A DNA stretch of 64,000 nt from Sphingobacteriia bacterium (GTDB taxonomy: Bacteria > Bacteroidota > Bacteroidia > Bacteroidales > UBA7960): the NCBI GenBank assembly GCA_011390785.1, contig JAABRR010000012.1, positions 62,001 through 126,000 on the forward strand, read 5' to 3'. Shown here in pieces: positions 51,675-63,389 of this stretch. Under the pieces are notes generated by a model, which had not been told where the DNA came from, did not search any database, and was given only the letters and a program-made list of their open reading frames with translations. Each line of letters opens with the position of its first letter. Within the stretch, counting starts at the first letter, position 1. Position numbers and translations under genes: made by a program.

Positions 51675-53291
51675 TTAAAATGCCCGTACGGCACGAACCC
51701 TGTTTGAGCTGGACTTGAGGCCGTTGCCGCTCTGATAACCATCGTTGAACCTCTGGATCCAGGCGTTGAGGCTATTGGACTCCGACGAACTCCAATAAAA
51801 GGCACTGGCAAAACCACTGCCACCTCTTGCTATTGCAGAAATATTAATAGCTATTCTATTATCATACATTAAACTTAATTCATGTTTTGAAGGCAAATAC
51901 CAGTCGCCATATGTTTTAGCGCCTTCAGTAATTTGTAGCTCATTGCATATATTTGCTGCATAATTAAAGCCATCATCCCCAATAGCTAACTGAGCTGCAA
52001 TAATAATAGATGTATTTGCTTGCCCTGATAAGGGACCATTTCCGTAAGCTCGTGTAATGCCATTAGTTCCGGCATACCAACGCTCTCCGGGGCTTTGGTC
52101 TGTTTTTGCACATACAAGTCCGTGTTGTCCGGTAGCATCAACCCAAAATACAATGCCACCGTGAGCAAAGTCGCCAATCTGATAGGTTTGTATTCCGGAC
52201 TGCCATGTAGCTGTGCCATTGGCATCGGATGTTAAAACTTTTCCCGTTCCCGGGGTTCCTGCACCGGCAAAACGAACTGAGCCGGTGGTATGCAATTGTG
52301 CTTCAGGTGTGGTTGTACCTATTCCTGCATATGCATTGGCCTGTTTTACAAAAATTGCCGATCTGTATTTGTTATTTCTTATGGAAAGTCCACCGGCAAC
52401 AGACTCATTGAATAGGTGCCATCGTACTGTATCTCCTTCGTAAATGCGAAAGCCACTATCCTGCTCATCGTCAGATTGCAGGTATAAAAAACTACCGGGG
52501 TGAGTGGATCCTTTAATGTGCAACCCGGCATTAGGACTGGCAGTGCCTATGCCCACTCTCCCTGTTCTGGTAATATTTCCCGTTAAATTGGCTGAGCCGC
52601 TCCAGGTGGGATCCGATTCTGAAAAACTGGTTAAATAGCCCGCTAAAGTATGATTGCCCCAACCGAATGCAGTATTCCAGTTGGTAATATTAGTATTGGT
52701 TATTCCAAAAGAAGGACTGGCAGTCCAAAGTGGGTCAGTCTCTGAGAAGCTGCTTAAATAACCTGCCGAGGCATGATTGCCCCAGCTGAAGGCGTTATTC
52801 CAGTTGGTAAGATTTGCAGATGAAATAACAGAAGCAGCTGATGATTCGAATACCGGATCGGTTTCGGGTAATTCGCCCGTAAGGGAACTGGCAGTATTGG
52901 CATGCAAGGCATAGGGCACGCTAAGCAATTGTGTGGTTTGGCTTATGGTATAATTAAAACCCGCTTCTACATCAATTTCTGTTTTTAGGAAATAGATGCT
53001 TTCTGCCCAGCTTATGGTCAAAAAACTCCCTGTAATGATGGTTCCGGTTCCTATTTCAAGTGTTACAAGACCATTATGATTGGTTTGCGGAAAATGTCTT
53101 TCGGTATAAACGGGTGTGCCATCTTCCATCGTTTCAAGAATGCTGATCTGAATTCCTACAGAATTATTAATCATCAGCTCATTGTCTGAATTCCGGATTA
53201 CGGCCTGATAAGATATTTTTTCCGGACTTTGCGCTTTTGTAATTATAATACTTATAGCAATAATTGCGATGAATAGTATTGATTCTTTCAT
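51675..53291 (-). CDS. DUF1566 surface protein, candidate DGR target
   Basis: This 538-residue exported protein has a signal peptide (MKESILFIAIIAISIIITKAQ) and an N-terminal beta-domain (KISYQAVIRNSDNELM, YTERHFPQTNHNGLVTLEIG). Two tail-fibre-like repeats with WGNH.xAGYLxSFSExDPxW follow (about 150-230), then a triple-beta/trimeric-fibre-like linker (GRVGIGTASPNAGLHI) and a C-terminal DUF1566 domain of the C-type-lectin-like kind (GIVFWVDATGQHGLV, WYLPSKHELSLMY, FYWSSSE). The last 35 residues (S505 on) have the codon pattern of a diversity-generating retroelement variable region. It lies downstream of a small T9SS cargo gene on the same strand. No T9SS sorting domain is visible on this protein itself. 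Confidence 0.88.
   Translation of the reverse strand: MKESILFIAIIAISIIITKAQSPEKISYQAVIRNSDNELMINNSVGIQISILETMEDGTPVYTERHFPQTNHNGLVTLEIGTGTIITGSFLTISWAESIYFLKTEIDVEAGFNYTISQTTQLLSVPYALHANTASSLTGELPETDPVFESSAASVISSANLTNWNNAFSWGNHASAGYLSSFSETDPLWTASPSFGITNTNITNWNTAFGWGNHTLAGYLTSFSESDPTWSGSANLTGNITRTGRVGIGTASPNAGLHIKGSTHPGSFLYLQSDDEQDSGFRIYEGDTVRWHLFNESVAGGLSIRNNKYRSAIFVKQANAYAGIGTTTPEAQLHTTGSVRFAGAGTPGTGKVLTSDANGTATWQSGIQTYQIGDFAHGGIVFWVDATGQHGLVCAKTDQSPGERWYAGTNGITRAYGNGPLSGQANTSIIIAAQLAIGDDGFNYAANICNELQITEGAKTYGDWYLPSKHELSLMYDNRIAINISAIARGGSGFASAFYWSSSESNSLNAWIQRFNDGYQSGNGLKSSSNRVRAVRAF
51678..51779 (-). other. Candidate DGR variable region at the end of the DUF1566 gene
   Basis: Within codons 505-530, 17 candidate variable codons (Ser, Asn, Leu, Ile, Asp, Tyr, Gly) all end in C or T (14 C, 3 T) and can all be derived from AAC/AAT by changes in the first two bases. 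Between them lie fixed codons (GCC TGG, CAG, TTC, GGT, CAG, AAG). The segment then ends in an unvaried run, RVRAVRAF, at 51678-51701, as at the initiation site of mutagenic homing. Hand-counted GC over 51678-51794 is about 56%, well above the gene around it. The template repeat and reverse transcriptase are not in the window. Confidence 0.6.
52606..52812 (-). repeat. Two imperfect protein-coding repeats in the DUF1566 gene
   Basis: Two copies of roughly 85 bases (about 52727-52812 and 52606-52692) encode NLTNWNNAFSWGNH.xAGYLSSFSETDPLW and NITNWNTAFGWGNH.xAGYLTSFSESDPTW. Such W...WGNH..AGYL repeats are common in phage tail fibres and in large Bacteroidota surface proteins. The ends are approximate. 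Confidence 0.75.
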
Positions 53292-53425: not shown

Positions 53426-53911
53426 CTAATTTTTGATGATTTTAAATCTGGCAATCGGTAAGTTCTTTTCTTTTACAATAAGAATGTAGGTGCCCGGATT
53501 ATATATGGAAAAATCGAAGCGCGTTTCTGTGTCAACAATTTCTACATCTGTAATTTGCTGGCCTTCTGAATTATATAACTGACAGGTAGTTTGTAATTGT
53601 GGCAATTTGGGTGTTTTTAAGGTGATGATGCCTGCTGTAGGATTGGGATAAACTGTTAATTGGTAATTCTTATTAGCAAGTTGGTTGGTTGTAACCACAG
53701 ATATTTCATAGGGTTGCTGCACACCCTGCCATTCGCTTCCGGTAGTTTCGGAGTAAACGCTATATAATACCTGTCCGATTGAGTAGCTCACGCTTCCGCT
53801 TGCGCCAGATATGTCTCCCCCTGCAGTTACTGTAGTTTGCTGAGCCCATACGCCAAATTGAAAAGCGAATGCTAAAATTGGAGTAAAGACAAATTTTTTT
53901 ATCGCCATCAT
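53426..53911 (-). CDS. Small T9SS C-terminal-signal protein
   Basis: This 161-residue exported protein has a signal peptide (MMAIKKFVFTPILAFAFQFGVWAQ), a short mature part with GGDISGASGSVSYSIGQVLYS and a C-terminal type IX secretion type-A sorting domain (LTVYPNPTAGIITLKTP, ...YNPGTYILIVKEKNLPIARFKIIKN). The start may be Met1 or Met2. The 134 bases to the DUF1566 gene downstream contain no strong terminator, only a weak stem at about 53385-53401, so the two may be one operon. It is probably surface-attached or released. No catalytic motif is visible. Confidence 0.8.
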   Translation of the reverse strand: MMAIKKFVFTPILAFAFQFGVWAQQTTVTAGGDISGASGSVSYSIGQVLYSVYSETTGSEWQGVQQPYEISVVTTNQLANKNYQLTVYPNPTAGIITLKTPKLPQLQTTCQLYNSEGQQITDVEIVDTETRFDFSIYNPGTYILIVKEKNLPIARFKIIKN

Positions 53912-60614: not shown

Positions 60615-63389
60615 ATGAAGAAATGTAATTGTATGAATATTCAACGATTAATAAGGCAATGTCTGGCGATCGTGTTTATTATTGTTTTTATACCCCACAC
60701 TTTTGGCCAGGGTTTTCTTCAAACAGATGGAAAGAAAATTGTGGACGGCAATGGTGATGAGATAATTTTAAGAGGTATGGGCCTGGCGGGTTGGATGCTT
60801 ATGGAAGGCTATATGATGCAGTCTTCGGATGTTGCAGATACCCAGTGGGAGTTCAGAGAACGGTTGGAAGAATTGATGGGAGTTGAGAAAACAAATCAGT
60901 TTTTTGATACCTGGTTAGATAATCATGTAACAAAAGCTGATATTGACTCGCTGGCAAGCTGGGGCTATAATAGTGCCCGCCTTGCCATGCACTATAATCT
61001 TTTTACTTTGCCGATCGAAGAAGAGCCTTTGCCGGGAGAGCAAACCTGGCTTGATAAGGGGTTTGAAATGGTTGACACTTTGCTGAGTTGGTGTGAGGCT
61101 AATAATATTTACCTGATTCTTGACCTTCATGCTGCTCCGGGCGGACAAGGCTATAATGCAGCCATTTCAGATTACGACCCTTCAAAACCTTCATTATGGG
61201 AAAGTGAGGAGAACCGGACAAAAACCGTTGCTTTATGGGGTAAACTTGCCGAAAGGTACAGTGATGAACCATGGATCGGCGGCTATGATTTAATTAATGA
61301 AGTAAACTGGGACCTGCCCGGCGGTGTCATGCTAAGAGAATTATATGAAGACATTACTGCTGCCATCAGGGCTGTTGACAACAATCATATTATTTTTATT
61401 GAAGGCAACTGGTTTGCCAATGATTTCACAGGCTTAACACCTCCCTGGGATGATAATATGTCCTATAGCTTTCATAAATACTGGGATTATAATGATGATC
61501 CCGGTTCAATACAATATGTATTGGATATGCGCGAAGAGCATAATGTTCCGCTATGGATGGGGGAAAGCGGTGAGAATTCGAATGTTTGGTTTACAGAAGC
61601 CATAACCCTTTTTGAAAACAATGATATAGGTTGGTCGTGGTGGCCAATGAAAAGAATCGAGAATATTGTGGCCCCTTATTCTATCCCTTTTACAGATGGT
61701 TACAAACAAATATTGGAATACTGGCGTGGCCAGGCACCTGAACCAACAGTTGATGAAGCTTTTGATGCAATGATGGAGCTGGCCATGAACACAAACAGCA
61801 TGAATTGCTCTTATAACAAAGGTGTTCATGATGCCAAAATCCGTCAGCCGCATACAGATGAAATAATACCGTTTAACACACCTCATACATTACCAGGATT
61901 ATTGTATTTGTCTGATTATGATCTGGGTAAAATCGGATATGCCTATTGGGATCGTGATTATGCTAATTACGGGGCTTCTACCGGTTCTTTTCAGGCATGG
62001 AATTCTGGCTGGGTATATCGAAATGATGGCGTTGATATCGAAGCAAATCAAGATCCCATAAAAAGCAATGGATTTCATATTGGTTATGTGGCCAAAGGCG
62101 AATGGATAAAATATACCATTCAGGTTGAAGAATCAGGTTCTTATACTACTGTTGCAAGAGTGGCTTCACAACAAAGTGGTGGGAAATTCCATATCAAATT
62201 AAATGATGAAGATATTACAAGTCAACAAAGCGTTAGCGCAACAGGCGGATGGACAAATTTTCAAGATATGGAAATAACCGAAGTACTTTTAAATGAGGGA
62301 GAGCATTTCCTGTCTTTTCATATTGATGATGATACACCATTTAACATAAGCAGCATTGAGTTTATCAAAACCGGTGAAGCAGATGATATAACATTCTATT
62401 GTTTAAACGGTGAAACCGGTAAAGATGAAAGATCTGTAAGGTTGTTCGTTAATCATCCAATTAACCCTGAGTCTATCGACCAGTCCGGAAGCGCATTCCA
62501 GGTTAAGGTAAACGACGAGGTTCAATCAATCATATCGCTTTCTATGATAGAAGCACAAAGCAGGACATTGATTTTGGAACTGGAACATCCGGTTTTATAC
62601 ACCGATGACATTACTGTTAGTTACACAGGTACTGCTATTACATCAGCTACAGGGAAAATTCTTGAACAATTTGCGGATTTACAGATCAGAAATTCGTTAC
62701 CCAGGCGCTTTGTTCTGCCTGCCACCATTCAAGCCGAAGATTGGGATTACCAGGAAGGTTTGGCGCTCGAAGAAACTTCGGATACTGGTGGTGGCTACAA
62801 TTTTGGTTATACCAACACAGGCGATTTTGCCGATTATCGTATTGCTATACTTGAAGCAGACGAATTTAACCTAAGTGTTCGGGTTGCATCCACAAATGCC
62901 AATGGTGTGCTGCGTTTCATTCTTATTGACGACTTTAACGATGAACAAGATGATGTGGTTATTGCAGAACTCAACATCCCAAATACAGGTGGTTGGCAAT
63001 CGTGGACAAGCATTTCCCAGGCAGTTACCCTTCCCAAAGGATTTTACAAACTGCGATTATACATTGATTCGCCCGAATTCAATGTAAATTGGTTTAAGTT
63101 TGAATTGGGAACAGGTATCGAAGGGGATTCTCAGGGGCTGAATACCAGGCCATTAATCTATCCAAACCCGGTCAGTGGTGATGAATTATTTATAAACTTT
63201 GATCATCTGTCAGATGAATATTATCACGCCGAAATATACTCCCTTTCCGGAAAGCTTCTTTACTCAGAAAGAATATCTGGCAGGATTAGCCCGGTAAAAA
63301 TTAATATTGCCAATACTCCAAAGGGCTTGGCCATTTTAAGGTTGCAAAGTAATGACAAAATCTATACCTATAAAATCATCAGAAGGTAA
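60615..63389 (+). CDS. Secreted GH5 glycanase with two CBM6-like domains and T9SS signal
   Basis: This 924-residue exported enzyme has a signal peptide (after MKKCNCMNIQ...; Met1 or Met7 may be used). The GH5 catalytic domain (about 30-380) carries the acid/base Glu229 (LINEVNW) and the nucleophile Glu317 (WMGESGENS). A CBM6/35-like domain (~390-590, IEANQDPIKSNGF, VAKGEWIKYT) follows, then an Ig-like spacer (~600-690), a second CBM6-like domain (~700-825, QAEDWDYQEGLALEETSDTGGGYNFGYTNTGDFADY) and a T9SS type-A sorting domain (PLIYPNPVSGDELFINF). It probably cleaves a beta-glucan at the cell surface. The neighbouring GH16 supports that, but the GH5 subfamily was not determined. Confidence 0.92.
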   Translation: MKKCNCMNIQRLIRQCLAIVFIIVFIPHTFGQGFLQTDGKKIVDGNGDEIILRGMGLAGWMLMEGYMMQSSDVADTQWEFRERLEELMGVEKTNQFFDTWLDNHVTKADIDSLASWGYNSARLAMHYNLFTLPIEEEPLPGEQTWLDKGFEMVDTLLSWCEANNIYLILDLHAAPGGQGYNAAISDYDPSKPSLWESEENRTKTVALWGKLAERYSDEPWIGGYDLINEVNWDLPGGVMLRELYEDITAAIRAVDNNHIIFIEGNWFANDFTGLTPPWDDNMSYSFHKYWDYNDDPGSIQYVLDMREEHNVPLWMGESGENSNVWFTEAITLFENNDIGWSWWPMKRIENIVAPYSIPFTDGYKQILEYWRGQAPEPTVDEAFDAMMELAMNTNSMNCSYNKGVHDAKIRQPHTDEIIPFNTPHTLPGLLYLSDYDLGKIGYAYWDRDYANYGASTGSFQAWNSGWVYRNDGVDIEANQDPIKSNGFHIGYVAKGEWIKYTIQVEESGSYTTVARVASQQSGGKFHIKLNDEDITSQQSVSATGGWTNFQDMEITEVLLNEGEHFLSFHIDDDTPFNISSIEFIKTGEADDITFYCLNGETGKDERSVRLFVNHPINPESIDQSGSAFQVKVNDEVQSIISLSMIEAQSRTLILELEHPVLYTDDITVSYTGTAITSATGKILEQFADLQIRNSLPRRFVLPATIQAEDWDYQEGLALEETSDTGGGYNFGYTNTGDFADYRIAILEADEFNLSVRVASTNANGVLRFILIDDFNDEQDDVVIAELNIPNTGGWQSWTSISQAVTLPKGFYKLRLYIDSPEFNVNWFKFELGTGIEGDSQGLNTRPLIYPNPVSGDELFINFDHLSDEYYHAEIYSLSGKLLYSERISGRISPVKINIANTPKGLAILRLQSNDKIYTYKIIRR

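Follow-up and report, generated by a model that had tools for sequence, protein, structure and literature searches.

A C-terminal variable region probably written by a diversity-generating retroelement, and since orphaned, in an Lcl_C-tipped protein of a Sphingobacteriia bacterium

The 64,000-nucleotide stretch analyzed here (hereafter the window; positions 62,001–126,000 of contig JAABRR010000012.1, Sphingobacteriia bacterium, assembly GCA_011390785.1) encodes a 538-residue protein with a C-terminal Lcl_C (DUF1566) domain, at the end of which pyrimidine-ending codons alternate with fixed ones (Table 1). The locus thereby raises the question of whether this patch is the product of a diversity-generating retroelement (DGR), i.e., of adenine-directed mutagenic homing from a template, and whether such an element still acts on it. 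A DGR origin of the variable region appears very likely from the evidence below, and the combined claim, i.e., that this is a genuine DGR-written region that is now orphaned and frozen, is probable, if held with clearly less confidence.

Reading the minus strand codon by codon reproduced what an earlier sequence-only reading of the locus had reported, namely 17 pyrimidine-ending codons (third base C in 14 and T in 3) set between fixed codons and followed by RVRAVRAF. Specifically, codons 505–509 read TCC AAT AGC CTC AAC, codon 512 ATC, codons 516 and 517 AAC GAT, codon 519 TAT, codons 521–525 AGC GGC AAC GGC CTC, codons 527 and 528 TCC AGC, and codon 530 AAC, after which AGG GTT CGT GCC GTA CGG GCA TTT TAA closes the gene. 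The G+C content of the patch, put at ~56% in that reading by hand count, was computed as 55.6%, vs. 43.6% for the whole gene and 37.9% for the window. The protein belongs to the Pfam family Lcl_C (PF07603; 39.8 bits vs. a gathering cut-off of 34.9), and both this profile and the structural model described below indicate a C-type-lectin (CLec)-type domain that bears the variable region at its C-terminal end.

Complete DGRs with targets homologous to the 538-residue protein, i.e., with target, Avd, template and reverse transcriptase (RT), occur within the same order. Among the 393 genomes of the order that were searched, the template pattern was found in eight, and the template consensus reads YWSSxENNNNNAWxQNFNNGNQNNNNKNNTNxVRAVR. 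In genome G046, contigs 23 and 250 each carry target, Avd, template and RT, and contig 483 carries target, Avd and template; the same genome also holds Lcl_C paralogs whose contigs show no cassette. In G128, G210, G292, G377 and G288, an Avd and an RT of 69–78% identity lie beside the template match. The RT of these elements has a reverse transcriptase domain and their Avd matches DivGenRetAVD/bAvd. All mismatches between template and variable region fell on template adenines at both L064 (21 over 105 bp) and L076 (17 over 113 bp), the latter template reading YWSSSENNNNNAWKQNFNNGNQNNNNKNNTNYVRAVR. The window's protein shares the homologous target domain and the fixed backbone of these templates; where these loci have the cassette, however, a convergent gene stands next to the window's target, and its variable region is one codon longer. 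The protein likewise resembles known DUF1566/Lcl_C variable proteins of DGRs in that an Lcl_C/CLec-type domain carries the variable region at its C-terminal end, template-Asn positions hold NNY codons (Y, pyrimidine) and the VRAVR tail is fixed; it differs from them in belonging to an assembly without RT, Avd or template. DUF1566 is the commonest Pfam domain among annotated DGR targets of the human microbiome (PMC4159848) and is frequent among DGR targets in a further study (PMC6642488). The RVRAVRAF tail occupies the place of the homing-determining sequence in DGR targets, and may have served in homing here as well.

For the codon test, the variable columns were defined as the 17 Asn columns of templates from other genomes, independently of the choice made in the sequence-only reading. 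On this definition codon 514 (AGG, Arg), which that reading had omitted, stands at a template-Asn column, and codon 529 (TCA) is one adenine change away from the ACA of most templates. Pyrimidine endings alone were weak evidence of a DGR (given the amino acids, P of about 0.003 at the sites of the sequence-only reading and about 0.02 at the template-defined sites), whereas the excess of C endings was strong evidence. The template-Asn columns hold 13 C endings, vs. 4.5 expected from the codon usage of the window (P = 4e-5), 3.2 expected from the gene's own usage (0 of 200,000 trials; P below 5e-6) and 3.9 expected in the all-locus test (P < 5e-5). The interleaved fixed codons had no such excess (3 vs. 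3.6 expected in the single-gene test and 3 vs. 3.1 in the all-locus test), and regional G+C content and foreign codon usage were rejected as the cause on this ground. Positive controls with a template or cassette at their own locus (L064, L114, L109, L076, L060 and L107) gave P values from below 5e-5 to 3e-4, and negative controls, i.e., Lcl_C genes without any sign of a DGR (L027, L068, L024, L082, L006 and L091), gave 0.26–0.83. The separation was imperfect, since the target of a decaying DGR in G038 reached only P = 0.03, and its fixed codons were likewise enriched in C endings.

The target was further compared with templates from other genomes, codon-aligned rather than un-gapped because of its extra codon. 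Against the G377 template, mismatches fell on 22 of the 47 A sites and on 9 of the 61 non-A sites, and the third base of the template's AAY codons was kept in 13 of 16 cases, as compared to 4–6 of 16 in controls. A concentration of differences at template adenines, with the template's third bases conserved, was found in these comparisons with foreign templates.

The machinery itself was sought throughout the source genome (4.82 Mb in 158 contigs, estimated to be 100% complete with 2.94% contamination; the window lies in contig 29, of 126 kb). No RVT_1 domain was found in this genome at E ≤ 0.001, nor any match to a same-order DGR RT or to Avd, so that a complete DGR was not recovered. A DNA search of the genome with the variable region returned that region alone and no second copy, as did two degenerate variable-region patterns; the generic template pattern was absent. 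Nowhere in the window was there any similarity to, or remnant of, Avd or RT at E ≤ 1, and the variable region matched no DNA in phage records. No cassette adjoins the target, because the convergent lipoprotein gene, which occupies the position of Avd, template and RT in a complete DGR, ends within a few bases of the stop codon of the target. A second Lcl_C match in the source genome (L104, 1730–3169 of the 4.5-kb contig C1) was set aside as a Ser/Thr kinase–Lcl_C fusion without a VRAVR-type tail; this contig (G000:C1) does not look like the remainder of the genome and is a possible contaminant.

In the nearest homolog (G010, same genus; one genome per species was compared), the domain is 60% identical, with 17 of the 20 fixed residues and only 1 of the 17 residues at template-Asn columns in common. 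The codon signature of this homolog is weak (7 C endings vs. 4.5 expected, P = 0.12), as would be expected from drift after loss of homing. According to the sequence-only reading, its interpretation would fall if the genome had neither RT nor template and the 17 sites were also occupied by identical residues in homologs. The former is what the assembly shows and the latter is not what the nearest homolog shows; the variable region is therefore best regarded as real but orphaned. Of that interpretation, the trace of adenine-directed homing in a C-type-lectin-like tip was borne out by the same-order DGRs with homologous targets, the controlled codon test and the fold, and the placement of RT and template elsewhere was not, as neither turned up in the whole assembly.

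Relatives show similar losses, each absence being provisional since their genomes are drafts. In G038, one contig (L102, G038:C22, 87–1650) carries a target together with a template that looks intact, its Avd has two in-frame stops, and no RT was found in this 98% complete genome; L102 is accordingly regarded as a decaying DGR. Within the genus of the source genome, G008 has a CLec-type target (WWSSTE...VRCVR; L133, G008:C46, 3–3074); at a distance of about 2 kb on its downstream side lies what is left of a DGR-like RT, a short C-terminal piece containing a stop. No intact DGR-type RT of this kind was obtained from any of the genus's 12 genomes, the only matches being weak or broken (one with a stop and 29% identity in G002, and the G008 remnant). 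Within the family, only G018 and G059 were found to have intact RTs that are clearly related and have an Avd close by; the target there is of a different subtype. RT matches in G010, G023 and G029 proved not to be DGR-like. Targets bearing the codon signature were present in G015, G029 and Draconibacterium WOFB07, and no RT was detected in these drafts. When compared with the G377 template, the Draconibacterium region (L097, 636–746) kept the third base of 16 of 16 AAY codons and differed at 3 of 61 non-A sites. Separately, an IMG/VR contig classed as viral encodes an Lcl_C protein (L096, 5361–5471) with 8 C endings at variable columns vs. 1.8 expected.

The explanation that we prefer is that a template with runs of AAC/AAT would have written the tip by adenine-directed mutagenic homing in the past; the lineage would then have lost its Avd–template–RT cassette, or the target gene would have moved away from the machinery, leaving the tip fixed and drifting. 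Several points weigh against this account. The source genome is a 158-contig draft with an estimated 2.94% contamination, from which a cassette of about 2–4 kb could be missing; no template of the target's own was recovered, so that foreign ones, one codon shorter, had to stand in; and the contrast between A and non-A mismatches lacks specificity by itself, P < 0.01 being reached as well by two controls that do not carry the codon signature. Because controls pass this contrast, it is the third-base test that carries the case. The draft state of the assembly also leaves room for the main rival account, a complete DGR (RT, Avd, template and probably an adjacent target of its own) on an unassembled stretch, still rewriting the tip in trans. 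This would fit a signature that is nearly intact, and G046 has Lcl_C paralogs on cassette-free contigs alongside its cassettes. We nevertheless consider such a remotely served, active target unlikely, given that a genome of 100% estimated completeness yielded no RT, Avd, template or second copy, that no intact RT of this kind was obtained from the 12 genomes of the genus, and that the gene's contig is 126 kb long and the window is free of DGR remnants.

Should the protein instead be an ordinary Lcl_C adhesin, in which exposed loops vary by mutation and selection and the NNY codons are coincidental or family-wide, the failure to find any DGR part in the genome would fit, and alternation of fixed and variable positions indeed also occurs in Lcl_C genes without the signature. 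Such an origin seems improbable, however, as the C enrichment is confined to the template-Asn columns, the signature is absent from the six DGR-free controls, and the third-base match to a foreign template exceeds that of the controls. Even less credible is a recent acquisition of the gene or its tip, with donor codon usage, from a G+C-richer organism: it would agree with the elevated G+C content of the patch relative to the gene, yet the donor's usage would extend to the fixed codons and the rest of the domain, and the fixed codons have no excess.

As to what the protein does, the AlphaFold2 model of residues 366–538 was of high confidence (predicted local distance difference test score 94.9, predicted template modelling score 0.91), and the best PDB match of the modelled tip was the C-terminal domain of Legionella Lcl (8q4e; E = 2e-9, probability 1.00), in agreement with the profile search. 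Identity to this domain is 30% over the aligned part, and no collagen-like repeats were seen in the window's protein; matches of the tip to classical C-type lectins were weak. Legionella Lcl is described as binding sulphated glycosaminoglycans (PMC11162425). Among NCBIfam profiles, adhesin_Lcl (1.2e-18) and Bdello_MAT_N (7.1e-10) matched, both under their full-protein cut-offs. The N-terminal domain resembles that of Bdellovibrio mosaic adhesive trimer fibre proteins, and the tip weakly matches the fold of Bd2740; in contrast to a proven tip of such trimers, however, it is of the Lcl_C type. The most likely role for the protein is that of a secreted fibre-type adhesin, with the Lcl-like tip predicted to bind its ligand via the once-randomized residues. 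The small protein encoded directly upstream is paired with the target in G010 (L066) and G015 (L103) as well, and this recurrent pairing suggests that the two work together.

Table 1. Features of the target locus (positions in the window)
Feature	Position	Strand	Basis or remark
Target-protein gene, 538 residues	51675..53291	-	Open reading frame (ORF)
Signal peptide of the target protein	N-terminus	-	Assigned by eye
Repeats between the N-terminal domain and the C-terminal Lcl_C (DUF1566) domain of the target		-	
Lcl_C domain, residues 442–536	51684..51968	-	Pfam profile and predicted fold
Variable region, codons 500–538	51678..51794	-	Fixed WSSSE, AW, Q, F, G, Q, K and RVRAVRAF between variable NNY codons
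Variable codons 505–530 (template-Asn columns)	51702..51779	-	16/17 NNY, 13 C-ending
Invariant 3′ tail RVRAVRAF	51678..51701	-	Conserved in proven DGR targets L063, L064 and L076; in templates up to VRAVR
Small secreted protein immediately upstream of the target, with type IX sorting domain	53426..53911	-	Por_Secre_tail, ORF lists
Convergent predicted lipoprotein, 154 residues	51204..51668	+	ORF; no family match

The orphan Lcl_C tips of the source gene, G015, G029 and Draconibacterium WOFB07 might, tentatively, constitute a class of frozen ex-DGR adhesins, in which tip variants would have been sampled by a DGR, a useful one retained and the machinery discarded. We found no description of RT-less orphan DGR targets in the literature searched, although the search was not exhaustive. 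Since detection of DGRs usually starts from RT and template, targets that outlive their machinery go unseen. The column-specific third-base test separated DGR-written from ordinary tips in genomes without a detectable RT, and as such offers a way to count frozen DGR products. If such a class exists, domesticated DGR products could be recognizable without a template, through the third-base bias at alternating codons, and this raises the question of whether bacteria use a DGR temporarily and lose it after settling on a good binder.
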